This document shows positions 43,174-46,730 of a DNA stretch of 64,000 bases, in pieces. Position 1 is the stretch's first letter, and each line of letters starts with the position of its first letter. A program made the position numbers and the translations under genes. Below the pieces are notes generated by a model that was given only the letters and a program-made list of their open reading frames with translations, was not told the origin of the DNA and did no database searches. The stretch comes from Crocinitomicaceae bacterium. GTDB lineage: Bacteria; Bacteroidota; Bacteroidia; Flavobacteriales_D; Crocinitomicaceae. The stretch lies in the NCBI GenBank assembly GCA_022447665.1, contig JAKVAQ010000022.1, positions 1 through 64,000 of the forward strand, given 5' to 3'.

Positions 43174-43246
43174 ATCTATCACGTTAGTAGATTATGGCAA
43201 GGTAATTGTCTAGATTTAATTGTAACCAATTGTGCAAGGTTGGTTA
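43174..43246. promoter_or_regulatory. Dyad-rich regulatory region upstream of the sigma factor gene
   Basis: Two inverted repeats lie in the divergent gap. AATCTA (43174-43179) pairs with TAGATT (43189-43194), 9-nt spacer. TAACCAA (43223-43229) pairs exactly with TTGGTTA (43240-43246), 10-nt spacer. A further TAGATT occurs as a direct copy at 43211-43216. The right dyad overlaps TATAAT at 43245-43250, 31 nt before the ATG at 43282. I read this as one or two operators for the sigma gene, or as the target of its own product. Confidence 0.45.
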
Positions 43247-43281
43247 TAATAAGTGCAAAGGAAATTAAAACCAAACAAATT

Positions 43282-43866
43282 ATGTCAGTAAACCCTATTT
43301 ACCACCATACGGAGGACAAGTTGAGGCAGGAGCAACTGTGGGTGAAACGAGCGAAGGAGGATCCACGTGAGTTTGAACCGTTGTATAGTAAATATCATGA
43401 GCAAATTTTTAGGTACATCTACCAAAGAATGGATGATAAAGAATTAGCAGGAGACATCACTAGTCAGGTGTTTTTAAAGGCTATGAATAATCTCCATCGC
43501 TATGAATTTAGAGGTGTCCCGTTTGCATCTTGGTTATACCGGATTGCCAAAAGCGAATTATATCAGTCGTTTAGAGATAAAAAAGCGCAACGAACTGTGA
43601 ATGTTGATAGCATGAATATGTTCGAAATGATTGAAGAGATGGAAGAGGACGACTCTCAAATTAATCGAAAGAAATTACTTGAAGTGATTAAACTCTTAAA
43701 AGAAGAAGAAATTCAACTTATTGAGATGAGATATTTTGAAAAAAGATCATTCAGAGAAATTGGAGAGATATTAGAAATAACTGAGAACAATGCAAAGGTG
43801 AAATCACATCGTATTGTACTTAAAATGAAAAAACTCTTTTTTAAAGAAACAAAGCGAAGAGCCTAA
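43282..43866 (+). CDS. RNA polymerase sigma factor, sigma-70 family (ECF-like)
   Basis: 194 residues from the ATG at 43282 (an upstream in-frame GTG start is less likely). Region 2: 'REFEPLYSKYHEQIFRYIYQRMDDKELAGDITSQVFLKAMNNLHRYEFRGVPFASWLYRIAKSE' (about 30-100). Region 4: 'LLKEEEIQLIEMRYFEKRSFREIGEILEITENNAKVKSHRI' (about 140-180). The two-domain build is that of extracytoplasmic-function factors. It is followed after 30 bp by a membrane protein in the usual place of an anti-sigma factor. Confidence 0.9.
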   Translation: MSVNPIYHHTEDKLRQEQLWVKRAKEDPREFEPLYSKYHEQIFRYIYQRMDDKELAGDITSQVFLKAMNNLHRYEFRGVPFASWLYRIAKSELYQSFRDKKAQRTVNVDSMNMFEMIEEMEEDDSQINRKKLLEVIKLLKEEEIQLIEMRYFEKRSFREIGEILEITENNAKVKSHRIVLKMKKLFFKETKRRA

Positions 43867-43896
43867 AATTTAGTGAATTAAGTTAATTTTTAGATA

Positions 43897-44676
43897 ATGA
43901 AAAATATAAAGTTTAACGTTGACCGCCCAGAAATTACCTCAGAGGAAATTATGGGTAAACAAAATTTCGAAGAGGTACTGGCTGGTCACAGATTTATGAA
44001 GAAGCCGTTTTATAAAAGTTCCTGGTTTATTGGAACCGCGGGATTAGCTTCTCTGGGTTTGATTGTAGGTGGAGCATTATCCTTTAAACTTGAGTCCGAT
44101 GTATCAATGGAGGGAGATGAGTTGGCAATAGTGAACGAAGGAGTGCCTCCCGAACAGGACAATATAATTCCGATAGGAAATTATCTCAGCCTAACCTTTA
44201 ATAGTGAAAGAGAGACACATGAAGAAATTGATAATGAAGATTTAATAGAGTATGACGAAATAACTACGCTAGTTGATGAAGTAATAGAAGAAGAGATACT
44301 TGTTCCAAATCAAGAAGAACCAGTAGAGGATGTTGTTGAAGAAGTAGTCGAGAGTCCTAAGAAATTTAATCGTTTAGATCTTCACCCTAGAATTTCTGGA
44401 AGAATAAATGGAAATATCACTAAAGAAGAACTTTTTGATGAAGAAGGATTGGTTACAGCTACAGATGTAGAAGTGGTTTCATTCGAGCTACACATAATTG
44501 ATGGAAGTGGGGGACGTGTATATGTTCAGACGGGCCATGAATTAAGTGAAGAAATGAAAAATTCTATCTTAAATGCTGAACCAGGACAAACTATCTATTT
44601 TGAGAAAATTAGAGGCGTTTCAGAAAGTGGTGTAGAAGTTGGATTAAATCCTCTCCGTTACACTATTCTCCGATAA
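43897..44676 (+). CDS. Single-pass membrane protein with C-terminal GldM-like domain (possible anti-sigma factor)
   Basis: 259 residues. A cytosolic N-terminus of about 42 residues, one membrane helix (about 43-62), a long acidic linker (about 68-155), and a periplasmic domain (about 162-258). That domain reads 'PRISGRINGNITKEEL', 'VEVVSFELHI', 'GQTIYFEKIRGVSESG', 'LNPLRYTIL', which resembles the last domain of the T9SS motor protein GldM/PorM. The short N-terminus could hold the sigma factor, but it has no zinc-finger (HxxxCxxC) anti-sigma motif. Gene order says anti-sigma; the domain says T9SS. Both are inference from pattern. Confidence 0.6.
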   Translation: MKNIKFNVDRPEITSEEIMGKQNFEEVLAGHRFMKKPFYKSSWFIGTAGLASLGLIVGGALSFKLESDVSMEGDELAIVNEGVPPEQDNIIPIGNYLSLTFNSERETHEEIDNEDLIEYDEITTLVDEVIEEEILVPNQEEPVEDVVEEVVESPKKFNRLDLHPRISGRINGNITKEELFDEEGLVTATDVEVVSFELHIIDGSGGRVYVQTGHELSEEMKNSILNAEPGQTIYFEKIRGVSESGVEVGLNPLRYTILR

Positions 44677-44717
44677 ACCAAGTGCTTCTTAATTAACGGT
44701 TTATTAATTCTAAATCC

Positions 44718-44748
44718 TTGGATTGCTTCATCTTTTGTCCTAACTTTG
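44718..44748 (+). promoter_or_regulatory. Complete Bacteroidota promoter TTG-N20-TAACTTTG
   Basis: TTG at 44718-44720, a 20-nt spacer and TAACTTTG at 44741-44748 make the best full -33/-7 promoter in the window. It lies 43 nt upstream of the first barrel gene start at 44792, so that gene can be transcribed apart from the sigma operon. Confidence 0.65.
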
Positions 44749-44791
44749 AGCGGTTGTAGCAAACGTATTGTTTTAAAGCCTGAAGCTTAGA

Positions 44792-45730
44792 GTGTTACAA
44801 ATATTAATCCTTGTAGCAGGTGCCCATTTTTCATGGGCTCAACCCACTAATTTTACGAAAAGTGACCATTGGCGTCATCAGCGTAAAGAAATAATCTTTG
44901 GTATTGGGGCATCCAACTTTTTAGGAGATTTAGGAGGATTAAATAGGATTGGATCTGATTATACACCACTTGATATGGAGTGGCCCCTAACCCGTCCTTC
45001 TGGTCATTTTGCCTATAGATACCGTTTCCGTCCATTGTGGGCAAGGAAAAGTATTATTCAATACGGTTTATTACACGGAGATGATAAACTAACAAATGAG
45101 CCAAGTAGAAACTATAGAAACTTAAGGGTAAGAACTCATTTATTTGAGTTCTCGCAACATATTGAGTTTATTCTATTCAATAATGAGCAATTCGGAAAGC
45201 GCTATAAAATCTGGGGTTTAAAGGGTATGGGTAATAAGAATGACATATGGTATGTGTTTTCAGGCTTTACGGTTTTTGGATATATACCACAAGGTCCTGG
45301 TGATGGAGGATGGACTAATCTAAGGCCTCTAAATACAGAAGGACAAGGTTTGCCGGGAGGTCCGGATCGTTATGGAATTGTGAATTATGGGATTCCATTC
45401 GGGATGGGATATAAAATAGGTATAGACGCGCTATGGAGAATGTCATTTGAGCTCAGTTATACGAAAACCTTTACGGATTATTTGGATGATGTTTCTGGAG
45501 TTTATTGCAATAACGTAGCTATTGAATCGGTCTATGGAGGCACATCAGCTTATTTTGCAGGTCCGTCTTCGGGTGAATTTGCAACTTGGACGGATACTGG
45601 ATAAATGAGAGGAGACTCTAAGCAAAAGGATGCTTACTTATTTTTTAATGTAAGTTTCATTCATAATATTGTTTATAAACGATCAAAAAAATTGAAATTT
45701 CAATATCGCTCAGGGAAACCTCGTTACTAG
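44792..45730 (+). pseudogene. Outer-membrane barrel (DUF6089/PorG-like) gene with in-frame stop
   Basis: The frame codes 270 residues and stops at TAA 45602-45604. The same frame then continues 'MRGDSKQKDAYLFFNVSFIHNIVYKR...' to TAG 45728-45730. The next gene, a paralog, has 'GKSRGNPDQMDAYTFINISLIRNIVYKK' at this point, so a Lys AAA has become TAA and the last barrel strand is cut off. Shared signatures: 'FTKSDHWRHQRKEIIFGIGASNFLGDLGG' and 'RPLNTEGQGLPGGPD'. The signal peptide ends at SWAQ; the start is GTG 44792, or possibly CTG 44780. It may be dead, readthrough-dependent or a sequence error. Confidence 0.7.
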
Positions 45731-45795
45731 ATCCCGTTTATTGCTTCTTTTTAACCCTTTACTCGATAGTAATGAGCGAACAAATATAGATTTCC

Positions 45796-45803
45796 TATGT
45801 TTG
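45796..45803 (+). promoter_or_regulatory. -7 box (TATGTTTG) for the second barrel gene
   Basis: TATGTTTG fits TAnnTTTG and ends 21 nt before the GTG at 45825, which it supports as the start. No TTG at the -33 distance. Confidence 0.45.
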
Positions 45804-45824
45804 TATCAACTACAAAACCTAGGC

Positions 45825-46730
45825 GTGAAGAAACTACTTTCAATTCTTTTTATTTCAGGATCAACATTATTGGCTCAGCACTCTCATTTCACAAAAAATG
45901 ACCATTGGAGAACTCAAAACAAAGAATTCATCCTTGGGATAGGAACGAGTAATTTACTAGGAGATTTAGGAGGAAGAGATCGGCTAGGAAAAATCAATTC
46001 TTTGGCTGATTTAGAGACTTCATTGTTCAGACCAGCAGGGCATTTTGGTTTCCGATTTCGACTATTACCATTTCTTTCAACTACTAGTATGTTCCAATAC
46101 GGTTGGCTAGAAGGAGATGATGATTTAACAAATATTCCTAATCGACGATATAGAAATATAAATACAAGGACTCATCTTTTTGAATTTACCCAAAGGGTGG
46201 AGCTATTATTGTACTGTAAAGAGAATTTTGGTAAACGGTTCAAACGACCTGGGTTGAAAGGGTTGCGTGCTAAAAATGATGCTCTGTATCTGTTTTCAGG
46301 AATTTCGGTTTTTGGATTTATTCCGCAAGGTAAATATGAAGGTACTTGGCGAAATTTGAGACCTTTAAATACAGAAGGACAAGGACTAGCAGGAGCTCCA
46401 GACCCTTATAAAGAATATAGCTTTGGTATACCAATAGGAATTGGATATAAAGTTGGCTTGAATGGTTACTGGCGAATGAGTTTTGAAATATCATTGACTA
46501 AAACCTTCACTGATTATTTGGATGATGTTTCGGGAGTATATTACGATAATAATCAAATTGAACAAGCGTATGGGACGGCTGCCGCTTATTTTGCCGATCC
46601 CTCTAATGGCGCATTTCGAGAATGGACAGAACCAGGTAAATCACGCGGGAATCCTGATCAGATGGACGCTTACACGTTCATTAACATAAGTTTGATTAGA
46701 AACATCGTTTACAAAAAGCGTGATTACTAG
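45825..46730 (+). CDS. Outer-membrane beta-barrel protein (DUF6089/PorG-like), intact paralog
   Basis: 301 residues from a GTG that starts the signal peptide (about 1-19, LLAQ). 'FTKNDHWRTQNKEFILGIGTSNLLGDLGG' resembles the start of DUF6089 proteins, the group that includes the T9SS outer-membrane protein PorG; that link is my reading and needs a profile search. Amphipathic strands continue to an aromatic end (IVYKKRDY). It is a tandem copy of the preceding gene, roughly half of the residues being identical, and the one that keeps its last strand. Its position after a sigma/anti-sigma-like pair makes it a candidate regulon member. Confidence 0.72.
   Translation: MKKLLSILFISGSTLLAQHSHFTKNDHWRTQNKEFILGIGTSNLLGDLGGRDRLGKINSLADLETSLFRPAGHFGFRFRLLPFLSTTSMFQYGWLEGDDDLTNIPNRRYRNINTRTHLFEFTQRVELLLYCKENFGKRFKRPGLKGLRAKNDALYLFSGISVFGFIPQGKYEGTWRNLRPLNTEGQGLAGAPDPYKEYSFGIPIGIGYKVGLNGYWRMSFEISLTKTFTDYLDDVSGVYYDNNQIEQAYGTAAAYFADPSNGAFREWTEPGKSRGNPDQMDAYTFINISLIRNIVYKKRDY

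Follow-up and report, generated by a model that had tools for sequence, protein, structure and literature searches.

That an extracytoplasmic function (ECF) sigma/anti-sigma pair serves genes of the type IX secretion system (T9SS) has been proposed before, for Flavobacterium psychrophilum, and SigP of Porphyromonas gingivalis is an ECF sigma factor with T9SS targets. In F. psychrophilum, SM6 promoters front T9SS genes (a PorG homolog, gldN and porU) as well as the ECF pair THC0290_1774/1773, and the authors proposed from the mapped promoters that this pair reads SM6 (PMC9723704). In P. gingivalis, T9SS genes are driven by SigP (PMC4800418, PMC7712824). CnrY, the partner of CnrH in Cupriavidus metallidurans, is a class II minimal anti-sigma factor whose two helices wrap its sigma factor (PMC7406223). 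Here we describe a locus at positions 43174-46730 of a 64,000-nucleotide stretch of forward-strand DNA (the window; contig JAKVAQ010000022.1 of assembly GCA_022447665.1), in which genes for an ECF sigma factor, a 259-residue single-pass membrane protein (hereafter the partner) and two PorG/DUF6089-like barrels all run in the same direction. The window comes from a 4.06 Mb genome whose nearest named relatives are Crocinitomicaceae, e.g., Crocinitomix catalasitica and C. algicola. The best explanation of the locus is that sigma factor and membrane partner form a switch linked to the machinery of type IX secretion and gliding; we assign it a probability of roughly 55%.

Compared by description, the locus resembles the SM6 system in having an ECF-type promoter with a CGT -10 box at T9SS genes together with a sigma/anti-sigma pair, but SM6 has other targets (no gldJ is named in the text) and its anti-sigma factor is not described with a GldM domain. 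SigP, also compared by description, is likewise an ECF sigma factor for T9SS genes, but it is activated by PorX/PorY, no downstream anti-sigma gene is listed for it and its proposed promoter motif is a different one. Three points look new: that the partner carries a GldM-type sensor, that such partners form a minimal, modular class, and that gldJ is the predicted target in Crocinitomicaceae; within the collection of papers searched, none combined 'anti-sigma' with 'GldM'. How T9SS supply is matched to assembly state is a question outside P. gingivalis, and the locus is a candidate answer to it, with, in one clade, a sensor that appears to be a copy of a domain of the secretion motor. The locus is also a candidate answer to a second question. 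In a survey, no more than 6% of the ECF sigma factors of Bacteroidetes had a class I anti-sigma domain beside them, and its authors raised the question of how the others are controlled (PMC7406223); an alternative class of minimal partners is therefore plausible, and such a membrane partner is easily overlooked because it can be shorter than 70 residues. As the locus is also present in the cultured species Crocinitomix catalasitica ATCC 23190 (L100), the switch is testable. The features that carry the argument are the following:

43221..43248, + strand: ECF-type promoter TGTAAC-N16-GTTATA (-35 element 43221-43226, -10 element 43243-43248), conserved before the sigma gene and gldJ
43282..43866, + strand: ECF sigma factor, 194 aa, assigned by Pfam and NCBIfam, start taken from the conserved N-terminus
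43897..44676, + strand: membrane partner of 259 aa and candidate anti-sigma factor, its place immediately after the sigma gene being conserved
43897..44022, + strand: candidate sigma-binding cytoplasmic segment, partner residues 1-42, the sole part common to all architectures
44035..44085, + strand: membrane helix, partner residues 47-63, from the AlphaFold model and a hydrophobic stretch in the alignment
44374..44673, + strand: predicted PorM/GldM D4-type periplasmic domain, partner residues 160-259, from Pfam, a profile, the structure model, Foldseek and VIA

The sigma factor and its membrane partner

The sigma-70-family factor recognized in the earlier note is an ECF sigma factor: the product of 43282-43866 matched both region 2 and region 4 in Pfam (Sigma70_r2, 3e-13; r4, 1e-7; both above cut-off) and scored 74.5 bits against NCBIfam TIGR02937 (cut-off 42.9). 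Its start was placed at ATG 43282 rather than at 43240, because the family N-terminus MxxNPxYHxT is conserved from there. A scan across named genomes yielded 80 sigma loci, which were then annotated. The partner stood behind the sigma gene in 74 of them; the remaining six comprised three contig edges, two loci where no partner was seen and one where no sigma gene was called. The neighbourhood for which the earlier note had suggested a survey of related genomes was conserved, with the order sigma-partner-barrel-pyrD in most of the annotated loci. The sigma/partner pair is conserved across Crocinitomicaceae, whose members live in the sea and in fresh water. A paralogous sigma gene (38% identical at the protein level) is present in the same genome outside the window (C15:95119; L244:1605-2153), and a membrane protein of ~68 residues from a related family, which was also detected by the partner's N-terminal profile, is encoded directly behind it. 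The same combination of paralogous sigma factor and mini protein occurs in other Flavobacteriales families (L294-L296).

The AlphaFold model of the partner contained helices at residues 15-21 and 24-32 followed by a single membrane-length helix at 47-63 (predicted local distance difference test, pLDDT, about 72-80), in agreement with the single-pass topology first proposed. The motif [N/D]R-x(4)-S-x-x-I-x(4)-[Q/K][N/D]F precedes the membrane helix and is constant in all builds of the protein, as is the part that comprises about 45 cytoplasmic residues and the helix itself. Four builds were found: a form with a fused D4 domain as in the window (29 loci), a long form of ~550 residues (25 loci), short forms of 80-110 residues (7 loci) and mini forms of <70 residues with nothing beyond the membrane helix (13 loci). 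One genome encodes a soluble 77-residue form that retains the motif. Since the mini, short and soluble forms all keep the N-terminus, it is the indispensable part of the partner. The long builds carry a putative ZU5/coiled-coil region in place of the fused D4 domain, and in 20 of these 25 loci a separate secreted D4 protein of about 135 residues is encoded in the same gene cluster. That D4 is fused in 29 loci and separate in 20, by fusion or fission, argues for a joint function. The periplasmic part of the long form had no Foldseek match under E 0.001; its VIA match to the ankyrin ZU5 domain (Z 10.4 over 126 residues) is no more than a hint. We read the cytoplasmic segment as the part that would bind the sigma factor and the periplasmic part as an exchangeable sensor.

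Position behind the sigma gene, a cytoplasmic N-terminus, a single membrane helix and joint conservation (74/80) are what is generally expected of an anti-sigma factor. No class I domain (zinc or four-helix anti-sigma domain, RskA/RseA type) was matched in the partner by Pfam or NCBIfam, and a class I identity was rejected, the N-terminus being two short helices within about 42 residues in the model and not a four-helix domain. Two cytoplasmic helices ahead of a membrane helix are instead the arrangement described for the CnrY type (PMC7406223). CnrH/CnrY shares with the locus this short two-helix stretch, the single membrane helix and the position beside an ECF sigma gene, but belongs to another phylum and has other sensing parts; the likeness is functional, with no sequence match claimed and the partner's sigma binding predicted. 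The partner is probably best read as a CnrY-like minimal membrane anti-sigma factor that a domain taken over from GldM links to the T9SS.

Genes for FecR-type regulators hold the same position as the partner gene. A FecR-like positive partner, which would deliver or activate the sigma factor and whose loss would silence the regulon, has to be weighed, as the sign of regulation is not readable from sequence and a retained minimal membrane-anchored tail suits recruitment as much as inhibition. Profile scans of the partner gave no FecR family match, however, and sigma genes without a visible partner in some lineages suit an inhibitor better than an essential activator; we consider the positive partner unlikely.

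A phmmer search of the whole partner against the PDB had a phage protein as its sole match (E 0.004); the match starts in the acidic linker and was rejected as driven by composition. Several genes around the pair were recorded in relatives. Small, varied secreted proteins are encoded behind the sigma and partner genes in six loci (L118, L123, L151, L155, L165, L173) and share a mature N-terminal motif, GTIxVxK, including some that fall outside the D4 family. The partner gene and the separate D4 gene of one relative (L053) flank a gene for a GldK-like protein of the FGE fold. In Brumimicrobium-like genomes (L154:8890-9702, also L148 and L161) the next gene after the switch encodes a choice-of-anchor J protein, whose T9SS type A sorting domain was profile-checked in L154.

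The D4-type domain and the predicted promoters of the sigma gene and gldJ

The resemblance to the last domain of GldM, noticed in the earlier note, was borne out by both sequence and predicted fold. Pfam GldM_4th matched the partner with E 1.5e-4 and 22.8 bits, just under the cut-off of 24.6, and a profile built from 44 relatives retrieved only PorM chains from the PDB (E 0.002). Residues 160-259 were modelled with a pLDDT of 91-98, and the top seven Foldseek matches to this part of the model were all PorM/GldM. VIA superposed it on PorM with Z 14.7 and a root mean square deviation of 1.7 Å over 100 residues; Z was 13.0 for GldM and 6.4 for the best unrelated chain. Residues 160-259 are, on the model, a homolog of PorM/GldM D4 (PDB 6ey5, 6ey6, 7cmg, 6ey4) with the same predicted fold. 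The partner differs from PorM/GldM in being linked to a sigma factor and in lacking the GldL-binding membrane region and domains D1-D3. On contig C23 of the same genome (L245:1697-8268) there are two gldM-like and two gldN-like genes, and two secreted proteins of ~139 residues are encoded between the gldM copies.

The promoter TGTAAC-N16/17-[AG]TTATA before the sigma gene was common to nine close species (one with CGTAAC), while its spacer diverged; family-wide variants with CGTTAT occur upstream of the sigma gene. The 'dyad-rich' region claimed earlier dissolved into this promoter: five six-base inverted repeats were counted against 3.4 expected, 27% of shuffles reached that count, and the best dyad, ATTGTAACCAA/TTGGTTATAAT, is the -35 and -10 elements themselves. 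The dyads were therefore rejected as a separate feature. One further element lies upstream:

43195..43208, + strand: TGGCA-N6-TTG, with sigma-54-like -24/-12 spacing that is the same in relatives

With the same spacing this element was present in 13 of the 80 loci scanned, including all closest relatives, and RpoN is encoded in the genome. In other lineages (47/80 loci; relatives L102-L172) a conserved leader hairpin with the invariant loop CTGCAAG stands roughly 45-100 nt ahead of the sigma gene; it is absent from the window clade. It had no Rfam match in the four loci searched, is 93.5% paired and shows compensatory changes in all six stem pairs (covariation 0.883 vs 0.258 shuffled).

A genome-wide pattern search in the window's genome and six close relatives returned 3-8 ECF-motif sites per genome, and in all seven one site lay 15-65 nt before the same gene. 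The product of this gene is GldJ by NCBIfam (375.9 bits on a locus-truncated piece, cut-off 458.2), and GldK was rejected as its identity in favour of GldJ. The motif preceded gldJ in 13 of the 16 named-locus genomes compared with 11 of 966 control genes (about 1%). Among further genomes of the order it was found before gldJ in 19 of the 24 genomes that have the sigma factor (in the remaining five, near-variants were seen by eye), in 2 of 5 with only a distant sigma paralog and in 0 of 7 without the sigma factor. The contrast of 19/24 with 0/7 has a probability near 3e-4 with relatedness ignored; its true weight is lower, because the sigma factor is distributed by family.

D4 of PorM binds PorN by two-hybrid (PMC5790014), the contact was also found by cysteine cross-link (PMC12421860), and for gliding Bacteroidota there is a model in which GldJ, GldK and GldN make up a single moving track (PMC12635249). 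The sensor domain and the best-supported target therefore share one machine. The connection to the T9SS suggested in the earlier note stands through the D4 domain and, as an independent line, through the motif before gldJ; a part for the barrels as intact T9SS PorG was not supported.

A proposed switch at the secretion and gliding machine

We infer both the anti-sigma role of the partner and what its D4 domain senses, as follows. The first ~42 residues of the partner, two short helices, would hold the ECF sigma factor in the manner of CnrY, and the D4-type end would contact the GldN/PorN ring or track, as the tip of the T9SS motor does, its homology to that tip being detectable in sequence and predicted fold. 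When ring or track parts change in availability or state, the partner would be altered and the sigma factor freed. The freed sigma factor would then transcribe its own operon together with gldJ, whose product is a structural component of the GldJ-K-N track; that it reads the conserved motif is suggested by autoregulation and co-occurrence. The sigma-54-like element suggests a second input. A PorG-like barrel, with a sigma-A-type box of its own, may form the outer-membrane end of the same pathway, which is the weakest step. The cell may use the switch to match the supply of the secretion machine to the state of that machine.

Several observations weigh against this explanation. The co-occurrence of sigma factor and gldJ motif tracks family lines and may go back to a single evolutionary event or to two. 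In the genomes G001 and G023 the motif is present at gldJ, and of the sigma factor there is only a distant relative; with these two genomes, and with the paralogous sigma factor and its mini partner, another sigma factor might read the motif. The search in the window's genome returned eight sites compared with five for a reversed-pattern control, a slight excess. The motif was not seen at any other core T9SS gene and was absent before the barrels (0/49). In a few lineages (G010, G029, G018, L170) the sigma gene is present but no partner is visible, and the mini partner forms have no sensor.

Some of the same evidence can be read as a switch for envelope stress that has no particular connection to the T9SS, in which D4 would be a reused Ig-like domain sensing periplasmic misfolding and gldJ one of several envelope gene targets. 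The motif also occurs at genes whose products are thioredoxin-like, predicted to belong to the envelope, or paralogous and similar to GldK, D4 is replaced by the ZU5/coiled-coil region or by nothing in many lineages, and elements of the sigma-54-like type drive chaperones and Lon in F. psychrophilum (PMC9723704). However, no other target recurs from genome to genome as consistently as gldJ, and the D4 match singles out PorM/GldM (Z 13-14.7, with the next fold at 6.4), which makes a general stress switch improbable. A further motif site was recorded in 4 of the 7 genomes, upstream of a gene for a protein of ~1140 residues of unknown family with the motif GSISRGVTVGN (C9:102319 in the window's genome, L246:3523-6942; relatives L183, L185, L196).

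The switch coupled to T9SS and gliding can be extended to a tentative joint reading, which we hold to be rather doubtful as a whole. In its first part the partner's D4 domain would compete with the GldM motor for docking on GldN or on the GldJ-K-N track, and would sense free or stalled track, upon which the sigma factor would be released and more GldJ made. In its second part the partner core of ~45 residues would represent a minimal anti-sigma class widespread in Bacteroidota, with sensor domains gained and lost. Such a checkpoint would do in the periplasm what FlgM/FliA does for the flagellum, and would make use of a copy of a motor domain.

The PorG-like barrels

Four features lie downstream of the partner gene:

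44741..44748, + strand: TAACTTTG, which matches the consensus of a sigma-A-type -7 box, ahead of barrel 1 (about 0.13 per gap by chance)
44792..45604, + strand: barrel 1 (BAR1), PorG-like, ending at an in-frame TAA before the last strand
45796..45803, + strand: TATGTTTG, sigma-A-type -7 box before barrel 2, consensus match
45825..46730, + strand: barrel 2 (BAR2), PorG-like paralog, 301 aa, likely start GTG 45825, without C-tail cysteine

The earlier note had described two tandem barrels of the DUF6089/PorG type. The family assignment stood: BAR1 scored 29.0 bits and BAR2 17.2 bits against DUF6089 (cut-off 23.2), and the barrels share their family and the N-terminal LGDLGG motif with PorG (PG0189, DUF6089). 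The assumption of two intact barrels did not hold. BAR1 most resembles the lone barrel that relatives have (72% to that of L103), and the closest relative reads through the position of its stop; because this in-frame stop precedes the last strand, BAR1 is decaying or misread. BAR2 is intact and more diverged. Nearly all relatives have a single barrel, and a tandem pair is not usual.

True PorG is linked to GldK/PorK by a disulphide through a periplasmic C-tail cysteine (PMC12635249), and such a cysteine has been shown to be required there. The barrels scored 71.5 (BAR1) and 62.1 bits (BAR2) against NCBIfam PorG, below the equivalog cut-off of 130, and no cysteine was present in the last 40 residues of any of 47 barrels (0/47). 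With both the equivalog score and the cysteine failing, the barrels were rejected as T9SS PorG. A true PorG is encoded elsewhere in the genome, on contig 12 (168.7 bits, C-tail DICEMRGF).

The barrels were also rejected as targets of the sigma factor, the ECF motif being absent from all 49 and a sigma-A-type box present before 21 of them; boxes like TAACTTTG also precede the barrels of the closest relatives. At slightly below even odds, the sigma/membrane pair is real and the barrels are mere synteny neighbours, members of a barrel-pyrD-HMG-CoA-lyase-like block with no part in the switch. This is compatible with the switch coupled to the T9SS, and both can be true. In addition to the promoter pattern and the premature stop of BAR1, it is favoured by pyrD and the next gene, which are conserved at this place as strongly as the barrel. 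Yet the barrel is of the PorG kind, PorG being a T9SS partner, it follows the partner gene in all 29 fused-D4 loci, and in one genus it stays beside a sigma gene without a visible partner. A second case of two tandem PorG-like barrels was found in L288 (G010), behind a sigma gene without a visible partner.

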